Source of the DNA: a virus
Reading direction: 5' to 3' (one strand)
Length of the DNA: 26,191 nt
Virus record (IMG/VR): IMGVR_UViG_3300043331_000242
Span: 1 to 26,191 of that record
The translations under genes and the position numbers were made by a program. The notes beneath the pieces were generated by a model that worked only from the letters and a program-made list of their open reading frames with translations, was not told where the DNA came from and searched no databases. Positions 14,201-24,751 of this stretch are shown here, piece by piece. Position 1 is the first letter of the stretch, and each line of letters opens with the position of its first letter.

Positions 14201-14265
14201 AACGTGATCTTCCGTTACCGTTGACTGTTGTTGGCATCTTTGGTACGCTCGGGGTAGGCGAGTGA
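11200..14265 (+). CDS. Tail tubular protein B (T7 gp12-like nozzle) with duplicated insert
   Basis: This forms the tail nozzle through which DNA leaves. The N-terminus is diagnostic: PIFPNFTAGEITPYLHSRTD, then KQLFNMYPRPQGPVSSRPGT and FPFRFNTEQEYVLEFSGAGM. After the insert the family resumes with PYTETQLAELKYCQNADQLY, then VSPRKLSRLLKAG. Further on come FFEQRLVLAGSSLKPGGLWG, WLLPTRVLLIGTAAAEFFAT and QREHEVVGWSRHVT. At 1021 residues it is clearly longer than T7 gp12 (794). Much of the excess is at residues 106-360, two copies of a carbohydrate-binding-like beta-sandwich (described separately). Similar inserts near the N-terminus could face outward on the tail. The gene overlaps the Gp13-like gene by four bases (GTGA). 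Confidence 0.93.
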   Translation: MARVHPIFPNFTAGEITPYLHSRTDFVKYHTGVKQLFNMYPRPQGPVSSRPGTRFVLEAFDSTKRSELFPFRFNTEQEYVLEFSGAGMVRFFKDGGVIMGKPVGLELVLNGGFPVDLTSWNAVQSGTGSAPAVVGAAAAFEVTGPGDGVSGINQEVTVTPNTFYVLQFTVTQGIVKVKVGSAQGLADVDPIGTYGVGSYVRVIQSSTDKMWIEAYNDSIQSILSTPSGPELVTNGDFPVGIADWTLSHTGDGIDPAWDAINQRADLEVVGPGAGTSVMKQEVTVAASTYYVVSFEVVTGPVAVKIGSSDGAQDILTKQEFIAGTHSFILRSLTARMWIEFENDDIGAIDEVDNVSIRLAGATVISARVDDISLKIANPIEVAHPYTETQLAELKYCQNADQLYLFHRDVSPRKLSRLLKAGNSGHIDWELVEVPFNPPATIEDGFLPNATLTLNATSGINIGITVSDPVLYTGDVNRVISAVTGKGRGTIRSCTTGSLFGNLDISEPFDVASFAPGKWKLEGSSCAKLTPSNASPVGAITMLTLDKDGWRLSDVGRFIRVNNGVVKVSEVSNVDPKLAAGWVLSSLSGVTDSPAGSWSVESPIWSAAYGYPEAGTFFEQRLVLAGSSLKPGGLWGSFTGIGESYPLSANDDNAWEYVLGANDVNRIRWLLPTRVLLIGTAAAEFFATGGEDRAITPTNIFVRSDSAHGSGSVPPIRVGSVGLFVPDSGRELRELIYDYEQNAFRANDMLITSNHLVENYEITRLAYQKKPNSIVWAIRSDGTLLSMTYQREHEVVGWSRHVTGPTQDCSDGQFESDTSITHWLRGTESVWVVVRRLIGGVWKRYIEYLDDRAGHYGELQTDSTLLFSGSPVSIVTGMNHLIGQTVQILGDGAVYADKVVQADGSVELDYPPASNIEVGLRFKSLLETLSPEVTISGTSQGRTIHWAEVIVRMYKSLGCIVNGERLRFRSADDPMDIVPPLFTGDKKKKHVPSAMNKGVIVERDLPLPLTVVGIFGTLGVGE
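11515..12279 (+). repeat. Tandem duplicated CBM-like module inside the nozzle gene
   Basis: Two protein-level repeats of about 124 residues begin at nozzle residues 106 and 230. Aligned landmarks are ELVLNGGFPVDLTSWN with ELVTNGDFPVGIADWT; FEVTGPGDGVSGINQEVTV with LEVVGPGAGTSVMKQEVTV; NTFYVLQFTVTQG with STYYVVSFEVVTG; VKVKVGSAQG with VAVKIGSSDG; and KMWIEAYND with RMWIEFEND. 'NG.F....W' followed by a Gln- and Val-rich strand and a final aromatic strand is the pattern of family 4/9-type carbohydrate-binding beta-sandwiches. DNA identity is low, so the duplication is old. Confidence 0.75.
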
Positions 14266-14696
14266 CCACATACCACATCGAACCTTTCCGGCGTGAACAC
14301 TTGGCTGAAATGCGCCGAGACGGACACGATTGGTTGGCGCTCTTGTCGTCACTTCATAACTACGAGCGCAATCCCGGTTTCTCGGGCTTCGCTGATGGTC
14401 GGTTGGTTGGCGCCGCTGGTGTTGTGTTTTGTAATCCGGGGGTTGCTGACGCATGGGCCATGGTGACGCCTTTGGTTCATCAACACCGTGTGTTCTTCCA
14501 CCGTACTGTTAAGCGCCTCATGAGTCACGTTATGAAGATGAACCAGTTACATCGGATTCAGGCAACAGTGTTCGCTGATGACAACAGTCTGTGTCGGTGT
14601 AAATGGATTGAAGCACTTGAATTTAAATACGAGGGCCGACTAAGAAAGTACACTCGTGACGGGCGTGATGCTCTGGTTTATGCGTACGTACCATGA
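14262..14696 (+). CDS. Gp13-like GNAT-fold protein
   Basis: The 144-residue product reads YHIEPFRREHLAEMRRDGHD, then ERNPGFSGFADGRLVGAAGV, DAWAMVTPLVHQHRVFFHRT and LHRIQATVFADDNSLCRCKW, ending KYTRDGRDALVYAYVP. This matches the T7 Gp13-type family, small proteins with a GNAT N-acetyltransferase-like fold encoded after tail tubular B. T7 gp13 is needed for proper internal core assembly. Here the usual acetyl-CoA loop (Q/RxxGxG/A) is not clear, so it may be a structural descendant rather than an active enzyme. Start GTG 14262 overlaps the previous stop (GTGA); the next start overlaps its own stop (ATGA). Confidence 0.82.
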   Translation: MTTYHIEPFRREHLAEMRRDGHDWLALLSSLHNYERNPGFSGFADGRLVGAAGVVFCNPGVADAWAMVTPLVHQHRVFFHRTVKRLMSHVMKMNQLHRIQATVFADDNSLCRCKWIEALEFKYEGRLRKYTRDGRDALVYAYVP

Positions 14697-15130
14697 TCAT
14701 TAGACAGATGGTTCCACGTGACGAAGATCAGGTACGACGGCTTCATGTTGACCGTCATCCTGGTTGGCCTCCTCGTCCCAAGTTTTGGTATTTTACTAAT
14801 CCGACCCTCGTTGTTGATCAAAAGGGCGTGGTTGTGGGATTTACATCGTTTTCGGTTACTACCCTACCAGACGGTCACACGGTTGCGTATGGGGCAGATT
14901 TAATCGTAGCCGAGGGTAACAAGGGACTCGGGAAGAGGCTCCATGAGAGTCGCTTGAAAGTGTGTAAATCGGTGGGGGCCACGACGTTCTTCGGGCTGAC
15001 TAGGCTGGATAACGTTGGAATGGTAAAGATTCTAGTGGAATTTGGATCCAGCCCCATCGGTGTGGTCAAAGATGCTTTTCCATATGACCGACCCCCAGCT
15101 GATGGGGTTCTGTACGCGGGGCCAGTCTAA
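14693..15130 (+). CDS. GNAT-family acetyltransferase-like protein
   Basis: This is a second GNAT-type protein, 145 residues, with the order expected of that fold. The N-terminal strand-helix is IIRQMVPRDEDQVRRLHVDR. A central strand pair is LVVDQKGVVVGFTSFSVT. After it comes AYGADLIVAEGNKGLGKRLH, in which NKGLGKRL resembles the acetyl-CoA pyrophosphate loop (R/Q-x-x-G-x-G/A). Then follow GATTFFGLTRLDNVGMVKIL and the C-terminal segment FGSSPIGVVKDAFPYDRPP. The loop makes it a better candidate for an active acetyltransferase than its upstream neighbour; the substrate is unknown. The tandem arrangement suggests related jobs, perhaps core assembly or modification of a host or virion protein. Confidence 0.78.
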   Translation: MIIRQMVPRDEDQVRRLHVDRHPGWPPRPKFWYFTNPTLVVDQKGVVVGFTSFSVTTLPDGHTVAYGADLIVAEGNKGLGKRLHESRLKVCKSVGATTFFGLTRLDNVGMVKILVEFGSSPIGVVKDAFPYDRPPADGVLYAGPV

Positions 15131-23633: not shown

Positions 23634-23696
23634 ATGGCGAAGAAGAACGGCGAGCAGGGGCAGCGCTTCCGCATCGACGGGGGAGCAGCAATTTGA
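23634..23696 (+). CDS. Mini-ORF of 20 codons before the membrane protein
   Basis: ATG 23634 has a strong GAGGGAG (23620-23626) seven bases upstream, overlapping the tailspike stop. The product is basic (MAKKNGEQGQRFR at its start) and ends at TGA 23694-23696. That stop overlaps the TTG start of the next gene. It is too short to assign. Either it is a tiny peptide gene or, more likely, a leader whose translation couples to the downstream TTG start. Confidence 0.45.
   Translation: MAKKNGEQGQRFRIDGGAAI
23679..23685 (+). promoter_or_regulatory. Shine-Dalgarno supporting a TTG start
   Basis: GGGGGAG ends seven bases before TTG 23693. No in-frame ATG or GTG lies near, and the only earlier in-frame start (TTG 23609) lacks such a site and lies within the tailspike gene. 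This picks TTG 23693 as the start of the membrane protein. Confidence 0.6.
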
Positions 23697-23947
23697 ACCC
23701 TGAGTGGTACACCGTCATAGAGTCTATATTGCTGGGCCTAGTCTCGCTCTTGCTGTTCGTCATCAAGCGGCACGCGAAGACAGAGACAACGCGCCACGAA
23801 GCGTTCGCCACGGAGAGTGCGGCTCGGCATGAAGAAAACGTGGCGTCGTTACACCGCATCGAGAATGGTTTAGTAGGCCGCTTGGAGCGGCTCGAGGATA
23901 AGGTGGACCGGCATCTCGCGTGGCACTTGAACGGCAATGACAAGTAG
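23693..23947 (+). CDS. Single-span membrane protein with coiled coil, holin or spanin-like
   Basis: From TTG 23693 the product has 84 residues. One hydrophobic segment lies at about residues 7-25 (TVIESILLGLVSLLLFVIK). A basic stop (KRHAK) and a charged helical stretch ending RLEDKVDRHLAWHLNGN follow. A single N-terminal span with a soluble helix suits a class III-like holin, an XhlA-type lysis accessory protein or an inner-membrane spanin. Its place immediately before an endolysin that lacks a signal peptide favours a holin role, since such an enzyme needs a membrane lesion. The weak TTG start would keep expression low, as expected for a lysis timer. It overlaps the endolysin gene by 11 bases. 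No nested second spanin gene was found. Confidence 0.75.
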   Translation: MNPEWYTVIESILLGLVSLLLFVIKRHAKTETTRHEAFATESAARHEENVASLHRIENGLVGRLERLEDKVDRHLAWHLNGNDK

Positions 23948-24356
23948 ATCAATCGCGGACTGCCACCCGATATTAGCCCAAGTGTTCCTGGACGCCAAGA
24001 ATCAATATGAGAGGGAGCATCCAGGATATACAGTGATAATAACGTGCACAGAGCGCTCAACCGAAGAACAGCAAAAACTTTTCAGACGAGGCCGAGTGCT
24101 GGTTGATGGGGAATGGAGGATAGACTCAGACCCCAATACCTCCATTGTTACCAACATCGATGGGGTTACCAAGAAGAGCAACCACAACCACCATCCCGCA
24201 CGTGCGATCGACTTCGCCATCGTCGCGCACGGCAAAGTTATTTGGCATCCAGCCGAATATGCGGTGTTCGCGGGCTACGCGCTCCGGGACCCTAACATAT
24301 CGTGGGGTGGTCACTGGAAGAGTTTCAAGGACTATCCACACTTGGAGCTAAAGTGA
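23937..24356 (+). CDS. Endolysin, M15-family peptidase (L-Ala-D-Glu type)
   Basis: This enzyme cuts the peptide stem of peptidoglycan at lysis. The 139-residue product has the M15/VanY-like zinc-peptidase layout. ITCTERSTEEQQKLFRRGR at about residues 35-53 is the 'T.R....Q..L...GR' segment. SNHNHHPARAIDF at 81-93 supplies a histidine (83 or 85) and Asp92 as zinc ligands. WGGHWKSFKDYPHLEL at 123-138 ends in the third ligand, His135. The size is that of the T5 endolysin (137 residues), which has the same fold. There is no signal peptide, so release should depend on a holin. The ATG at 23937 overlaps the upstream membrane-protein gene, and the stop overlaps the next start (GTGA). Confidence 0.9.
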   Translation: MTSRSIADCHPILAQVFLDAKNQYEREHPGYTVIITCTERSTEEQQKLFRRGRVLVDGEWRIDSDPNTSIVTNIDGVTKKSNHNHHPARAIDFAIVAHGKVIWHPAEYAVFAGYALRDPNISWGGHWKSFKDYPHLELK

Positions 24357-24751
24357 AGACCCACGAGGCCCTCGGCCTGCCGAGCTTTGCCGACGAGGCG
24401 TACGTCGAGAAGGTTTGCGCGGAGGCGCAGCGACTCGGGTCGGACGGCTGTTCAGGCCCGACGCTGCCGGTATACGTCGATGCCTGTCGCGAACATGACG
24501 TCCACTATCGCACCCACCAGACGCTTTATGGTGTGGCTCTCGAGCAGTGGCAAGCTGATCGCGTGCTCCGCGAGCGCATCCAGAGCCGATCGTCCTTTGG
24601 GGATTGGTCGCCCATGGCGTGGTGGAGATGGTCAGCGCTGCGTTTGTTGGGCAAGGCGGCGTGGAAAGCTAAGGATCGCGGCACGCCCATCGCGGACCAC
24701 CCGTGGCTCTACCTGCGCCGTTGGGGTGGCGAGGCACCTCCGGAGGCGTAG
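24353..24751 (+). CDS. Phospholipase A2-like / DUF1353-like protein in lysis cassette
   Basis: The 132-residue product from GTG 24353 (GTGA overlap with the endolysin stop) contains SDGCSGP at residues 30-36 and VDACREHDVHYR at 42-53. Secreted prokaryotic phospholipases A2 carry 'SDGCS..PD' followed by 'AC.RHDFGYRN', where the His-Asp pair is catalytic and the cysteines pair. Here the pair would be His48-Asp49 with Cys33 and Cys45. Further on, QADRVLRERI gives an Asp (69) in the place of the second active-site acid, and MAWWRWSALRLLGKAAWKAK resembles the tail of the DUF1353 phage family ('HD..YR...AD..F...W.....VR..G..W'). No signal peptide is seen. A membrane-lipid-degrading lysis helper is a hypothesis; DUF1353 membership with unknown function is the conservative reading. 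Confidence 0.72.
   Translation: MKTHEALGLPSFADEAYVEKVCAEAQRLGSDGCSGPTLPVYVDACREHDVHYRTHQTLYGVALEQWQADRVLRERIQSRSSFGDWSPMAWWRWSALRLLGKAAWKAKDRGTPIADHPWLYLRRWGGEAPPEA

Follow-up and report, generated by a model that had tools for sequence, protein, structure and literature searches.

A putative phospholipase A2 of the group XIV/DUF1353 superfamily encoded directly after the endolysin in a podovirus-type contig: a candidate extra lysis enzyme

A previous survey of 677 phages found 91 (~13%) without a spanin, and raised the question of how else the outer membrane is crossed (PMC6139136). A lipolytic enzyme with a role in lysis is already known, namely the mycobacteriophage esterase LysB (PMC5707550). 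A phospholipase A2 (PLA2) is also known next to a phage-type lytic enzyme. TtaP, a DUF1353 protein, is an experimentally proven PLA2 that is inactivated by the substitution D85A, and its authors saw a relationship both with group XIV enzymes and with prophage DUF1353 proteins (PMC11525133). TtaP is encoded in the same islet as the phage-type muramidase TtsA; its loss left envelope integrity unchanged, and a possible contribution of TtaP to outer-membrane perturbation beside TtsA was suggested (PMC11525133). This suggestion is the nearest published idea to the one presented here. No publication linking DUF1353 or PLA2 to phage lysis was found in literature coverage that mostly leaves out subscription journals and preprints.

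The window, i.e., the whole stretch of DNA analysed here, is the linear virus record IMGVR_UViG_3300043331_000242 of 26,191 bases. It encodes a podovirus-type head-tail connector (PF12236), and this connector/portal is akin to those of Pelagibacter phage Baldr and Vibrio phages VP2 and phiVC8. The late genes run rightward, and at their end lies a short lysis block, in which a one-transmembrane coiled-coil gene, an M15 endolysin gene and a PLA2-like gene overlap head to tail. The features of this block are as follows:

23693–23947, + strand: 84-aa protein with a TTG start, carrying one transmembrane (TM) helix at its N-terminus as well as a coiled coil; may be a holin/XhlA-like protein or a membrane lysis protein of type II
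23937–24356, + strand: M15 endolysin of the L-Ala-D-Glu peptidase type (PF13539 at 4.5e-7, phrog_465 at 6.5e-23)
24344–24347, + strand: Shine-Dalgarno-like GGAG, 5 nt before the GTG start of the next gene, read directly
24353–24751, + strand: PLA2-like protein of 132 aa with a GTG start; last gene of the late operon
24440–24511, + strand: putative active-site core S30-D31-G32-C33-S-G-P36 ... C45-R-E-H48-D49-V-H-Y52-R53
24554–24562, + strand: codons of A68-D69-R70; Asp69 is the predicted equivalent of the Asp in the group XIV PLA2 His/Asp dyad and of TtaP D85

An earlier sequence-only reading had placed the PLA2-like open reading frame directly after the endolysin; its position is exact, and the gene before it does encode an M15 endolysin, whose TGA stop overlaps the GTG start (GTGA). 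The motifs claimed by that reading are also present, with SDGCSGP at residues 30–36, followed by C45-R-E-H48-D49-V-H-Y52-R and A68-D69-R. The protein possesses neither a signal peptide nor a TM helix (no hydrophobic N-terminal segment). A primase/helicase gene (D5/DUF5906, phrog_864) lies 3' of it on the opposite strand, and no integrase was seen in the contig. A holin, an XhlA-like partner and an i-spanin-like protein are candidate readings of the product of 23693–23947, and small genes of a similar TM/coiled-coil type are found beside the PLA2-like gene in four other viral contigs (L068, L078, L042, and L002). In the tail gene region of the window, two overlapping small genes with an acetyltransferase-like reading adjoin at 14262–14696 and 14693–15130.

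The combination DGC[ST]-x8..15-C-x2-HD-x2-Y has a chance expectation of ~1e-6 over the six frames of the window, and is thus not a chance match. Searched alone, the window protein matched just phrog_6098 ("unknown", E = 4.7e-4), while single-sequence searches of Pfam, NCBIfam, PDB and phage genomes (tblastn), as well as peptide-seeded scans of viral and genome contigs, returned nothing useful. The tblastn matches in RickRoss and FLC9 (E 7–9), which lie on the strand opposite to annotated genes, were rejected as chance. A strict fixed-gap motif gave no match; a variable-gap degenerate DNA motif (DGC[ST]-gap-C..HD..Y) run on viral contigs gave 41 stretches, about 39 of which are true viral homologues (L052 is a chance match, and L050 holds no matching open reading frame). 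The nearest homologues are 39–46% identical to the window protein. A family profile was built from 33 aligned homologues, and a wider set of 38 sequences adds proteins from Mannheimia and Aeromonas (ordinary tblastn) and DUF1353 members, which were found without the motif. phrog_6098 was matched by 31 of the 33 members, with a best value of 2.1e-19. These matches place the window protein in a real phage family of wide occurrence.

Searched against PDB, the 33-member profile matched four group XIV PLA2s at 4.7e-11, 1.2e-10, 3.1e-10, and 3.8e-9 (among them 4aup at 5e-11 and 1faz at 4e-9), with the next unrelated chain at 1.1, and the alignment spans the whole core, with the DGC loop at one end and the C-terminal VRxFG helix at the other. 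A narrow 13-member profile also matched PLA2s in PDB (3.8e-6 to 3.8e-5). Because the collecting motif could bias the profile towards PLA2, the selected residues were masked and the search was repeated; with all motif-fixed residues masked, PLA2 7ygk still came first (0.0055) and the Streptomyces enzyme SvPLA2 (1faz) second (0.26). The Pfam family of these enzymes, PF09056 (Phospholip_A2_3), was matched by 13 of the 33 members, with a best value of 2.3e-6 and a best score among the matches listed of 28.2 bits against a cut-off of 29.4, and the window protein fell below this curated cut-off with no match. DUF1353 (PF07087) was matched weakly by seven of the 33 (best 6.5e-5) and not by the window protein (cut-off 22.5 bits). 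The family profile matched a DUF1353 protein, that of Fusobacterium phage FNU_1P, at 4.5e-11, and phrog_6098 is common to the window protein and the DUF1353 protein of L002. The DUF1353-like tail, and the profile link to PLA2 and DUF1353 that the sequence-only reading expected, are therefore supported indirectly, through the family and its relatives, but not by the window protein searched alone.

His48, Asp49, Tyr52, Arg53, and Asp69 of the window protein align with 1faz, 4aup, and 7ygk. His48 and Asp49, whose conservation the sequence-only reading had made a test of its proposal, are invariant in 38/38 sequences together with Tyr52 and Ala68-Asp69, including the Mannheimia, Aeromonas, and DUF1353 members; Ala68-Asp69 is not part of the collecting motif. 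Val96 and Gly100 are nearly invariant among the 33 aligned members. The invariance of His48, Asp49, Tyr52, and Asp69 across such divergent sequences implies selection on catalysis. From the published description and the present alignment, TtaP D85 would be the counterpart of Asp69. Taken with the group XIV profile homology, the unselected Asp69, the DUF1353 link and 1faz as the sole plausible (weak) fold match, the window protein is likely to be a PLA2-like enzyme of the group XIV/DUF1353 superfamily, as first proposed from its motifs.

An AlphaFold2 model of the window protein, built on the 33-sequence alignment, is mostly helical and confident (pLDDT 84.5, pTM 0.75). Foldseek ranked 1faz, the Streptomyces PLA2, at the top of 350,542 PDB chains, with weak values (E 1.8, probability 0.54, TM 0.44–0.47), and every other PDB match had a probability of ≤0.04. 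In the viral model library BFVD, the best match was a 94-aa protein (probability 1.00); matches of low significance there included A0A481YVG4 of Marseillevirus LCMAC102 (DUF1353, 0.44) and A0A481Z3V6 of Pithovirus LCPAC001 (0.63). A poorer model of the relative L067 (pTM 0.53) gave no PLA2 match and nothing relevant. The predicted likeness to the Streptomyces enzyme thus stands as the best PDB match of one model, but is weak and was not repeated by the second; the modelled structure agrees with the PLA2 assignment and does not prove it.

Cys33 and Cys45, a pair fixed by the collecting motif, are both present in the window protein. A second pair, comprising the cysteine that directly precedes Cys45 and the LRxC cysteine (window residues 44 and 75), is either wholly present or wholly absent in 33/33 aligned members (19 with, 14 without) and in 38/38 of the wider set (22 with, 16 without), counts to which no formal probability is attached as related sequences are not independent. 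Since these cysteines always occur together, a second disulfide is likely in the family, and the window protein, with Ala44 and Arg75 in their place, has probably lost it on both sides. The first pair was also lost together in the two DUF1353 proteins of the 38-sequence set. Disulfides form in the periplasm, not in the cytosol, and disulfide formation might hold the lipase in a harmless state for as long as the holin has not opened the membrane; such a switch cannot apply to the cysteine-free DUF1353 proteins.

The cysteine-bearing family gene has lytic neighbours of three kinds: M15 endolysins (the window, L058, and L063), T4-type lysozymes (L068, L042, and L064), and a transglycosylase (L078). 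In L040 and L054, an M15-like gene is located nearby; about ten cassettes in all place the PLA2-like gene beside non-homologous endolysins. In L068, the genes follow the window order, with the TM coiled-coil gene first, then a lysozyme as the non-homologous endolysin, and then the PLA2-like gene. DUF1353 is found in the lysis block of L002 and beside lysis genes in about seven named phage lineages, with lysis-block copies in Fusobacterium phages FNU_1P and phiRTG5, E. coli phage Bas80, Caulobacter phage DMCA, Cobetia phage Carin1, Nitratiruptor phage NrS-3, and Pseudomonas phage phiPMW. In Bas80, two endolysins, a holin and an Rz-like spanin are followed by the DUF1353 gene Bas80_0020, labelled tail assembly chaperone. 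In a neighbour test, at least six endolysins were found among 150 open reading frames within 700 bp, against at least one among 150 located more than 2.5 kb away, which is suggestive of lysis adjacency.

Exceptions are frequent. The homologues in L056 (7136–7471, between portal and scaffold genes) and L062 (4554–4832, among tail genes), both ~40% identical, are far from any recognised lysis gene; the L045 copy precedes a terminase, the Campylobacter, Melnitz, and HTVC008M copies are located in replication regions, and the Mannheimia (PHL101) and SNW-1 copies come after a tail fibre gene. Podovirus relatives of the window found via the capsid protein lack a PLA2-like gene. That the gene recurs next to endolysins with different folds speaks for a functional link, while the exceptions indicate that this link is not obligatory. 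The survey of neighbouring genes therefore supports the proposed lysis role of a lipid-degrading enzyme through its repeated adjacency to unrelated endolysins and holins, but not as a universal rule.

PHROGs and RefSeq label phrog_1158/DUF1353 as 'tail assembly chaperone' (e.g., L108:4001–4342, NC_054640, NC_031924, and NC_015464), and a single DUF1353 query matched 234 phage records. As judged from the PLA2-like HD..Y/AD core and the location of several copies in lysis blocks, this label looks wrong in many DUF1353 records, and the family reading would correct it on hundreds of them.

No credible lipoprotein or spanin gene was detected in the 26 kb window, and the claim that no recognisable spanin is present holds for this contig; the only lipobox-like open reading frame is out of frame within the scaffold gene. 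However, the window is probably an incomplete genome, with 26 kb against the 35–40 kb of its podovirus relatives Baldr, VP2, and phiVC8. VP2 and VP5, its nearest named portal relatives, are listed among the spanin-less phages (PMC6139136). Both the PLA2-like family and DUF1353 were absent from all ten spanin-less phages tested (VP2, BPP-1, PaP3, KPP10, VP882, RcapMu, Petty, 16-3, phiHAP-1, and SIO-2). Two relatives have an Rz-like spanin nearby, namely Bas80, directly before DUF1353, and L058, in the same cassette (phrog_739, 1.9e-13), and a small lipoprotein gene adjoins the PLA2-like gene in L064 and L070. Given the 0/10 result and the co-occurrence with a spanin in Bas80 and L058, the family cannot serve as a replacement for spanins in general. 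The suggestion that this phage uses a lipase rather than a spanin is not supported, given these findings and the probable incompleteness of the window, and such use in this particular phage is possible but unlikely.

Direct support exists for the sequence and its homology, for the conservation of the catalytic residues, for the place of the gene in the cassette and for its repeated occurrence next to unrelated endolysins. A function of the PLA2-like protein in host lysis or progeny release is moderately likely, and we put the probability that it is a small group XIV/DUF1353 PLA2 acting as an extra lysis enzyme at roughly one half. The protein would be made late, in one operon with the one-TM membrane protein and the M15 endolysin, and, having no export signal, would wait in the cytosol. 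Once the inner membrane is opened, it would enter the periplasm with the endolysin, presumably through the holin lesion, and would become active with Ca2+ present and the presumed Cys33-Cys45 disulfide formed. His48 with Asp69 is predicted to activate water, with Asp49 and the DGC loop holding Ca2+; phosphatidylethanolamine and phosphatidylglycerol would thereby lose their sn-2 acyl chain. Accumulating lysophospholipid and fatty acid would then weaken the remaining membrane, and the membrane broken would probably be the outer one, from inside, after the peptidoglycan has gone.

A possible but less probable explanation is that the PLA2 is an accessory to spanin-driven lysis, which remodels or dissolves membrane remnants and thereby speeds the dispersal of progeny, or serves under special conditions only, while a spanin encoded outside the contig breaks the outer membrane itself. 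The spanin next to DUF1353 in Bas80, the one in the L058 cassette, the lipoprotein genes in L064 and L070 and the short length of the window relative to 35–40 kb podoviruses are consistent with it. Spanins are usually located in the lysis region, however, and that of the window holds no spanin or lipoprotein gene; the spanin-less state of VP2 and VP5 (PMC6139136) also speaks against this explanation. Should the gene instead encode a virion-associated lipase, it might act at entry and help DNA or internal proteins across a membrane, a reading that fits the homologues beside portal, tail or tail-fibre genes in L056, L062, Mannheimia PHL101, and SNW-1. Parvovirus VP1 has a PLA2 domain, which is a comparable idea. 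The translational coupling of the window gene to the endolysin, the recurrence of this pairing with non-homologous endolysins and the lack of any fusion to a structural protein among ~40 members make an entry role improbable.

Copies after the tail fibres of temperate Mannheimia phages, copies in replication regions and the mention of prophage DUF1353 relatives of TtaP (PMC11525133) fit a cargo (moron) gene, which would alter host membranes or fitness in infection or lysogeny and whose position between tail fibre and lysis genes would be incidental. Given the lack of an integrase in the contig, and the tight endolysin overlap and the recurrence in about seven DUF1353 phage lineages, both of which point to late, lysis-linked expression, this origin seems more improbable still. 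Least probable is a relative that has lost catalysis or been repurposed, and that binds membranes with no cleavage of lipids: catalysis by the phage members and their active-site geometry are deduced from sequence, but His48, Asp49, Tyr52, and Asp69 stay unchanged across 38 divergent sequences.

If the extra lysis enzyme is real, PLA2 beside an endolysin would be a concrete candidate route through the outer membrane for at least some spanin-less phages. A broader and speculative proposal is that the PLA2 superfamily (phrog_6098 with DUF1353/phrog_1158) forms a third general class of phage outer-membrane disruptors, released with the endolysin; its cysteine-bearing branch might be switched on by a periplasmic disulfide, it might replace spanins in some phages, and TtsA-TtaP might be a domesticated cassette. 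E. coli phage Bas80 offers a laboratory system for DUF1353 in a lysis block, and a short enzyme attacking bacterial phospholipids after wall digestion would be relevant to lytic enzymes against Gram-negative bacteria.

Compared with known systems, the window protein shares with group XIV PLA2s (PF09056; SvPLA2 1faz/1lwb and Tuber borchii 4aup) the DGC...C..HD..YR pattern followed by the catalytic Asp, and its Cys33-Cys45 pair corresponds to their first disulfide; the phage family also shares their C-terminal 'W/Y..VR.FG' helix, with profile matches of 1e-11 to 4e-9. Unlike them, it lacks a signal peptide and the second cysteine pair, has a shorter N-terminus, lies below the Pfam cut-off when taken alone, and is phage-encoded in a lysis operon. 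DUF1353 proteins (PF07087; phrog_1158) resemble the phage family in the HD..Y, AD, and VR..G core and in their cassette position in several phages, but carry DGAS or DFAS without cysteines, whereas the window protein keeps Cys33 and Cys45. Judged by these residues, it is intermediate, with the cysteines of group XIV and the phage encoding of DUF1353. For its own family, phrog_6098, PHROGs assigns no function, and the PLA2 reading is new. Spanins (Rz/Rz1 and u-spanin) and LysB resemble the proposed role in being a third lysis component that acts on the outermost lipid layer. The window protein differs from spanins in having no lipobox, TM helix or fusogenic coiled coil, and from LysB in that the latter is a mycolyl-arabinogalactan esterase of phages with mycobacterial hosts, not a phospholipase.
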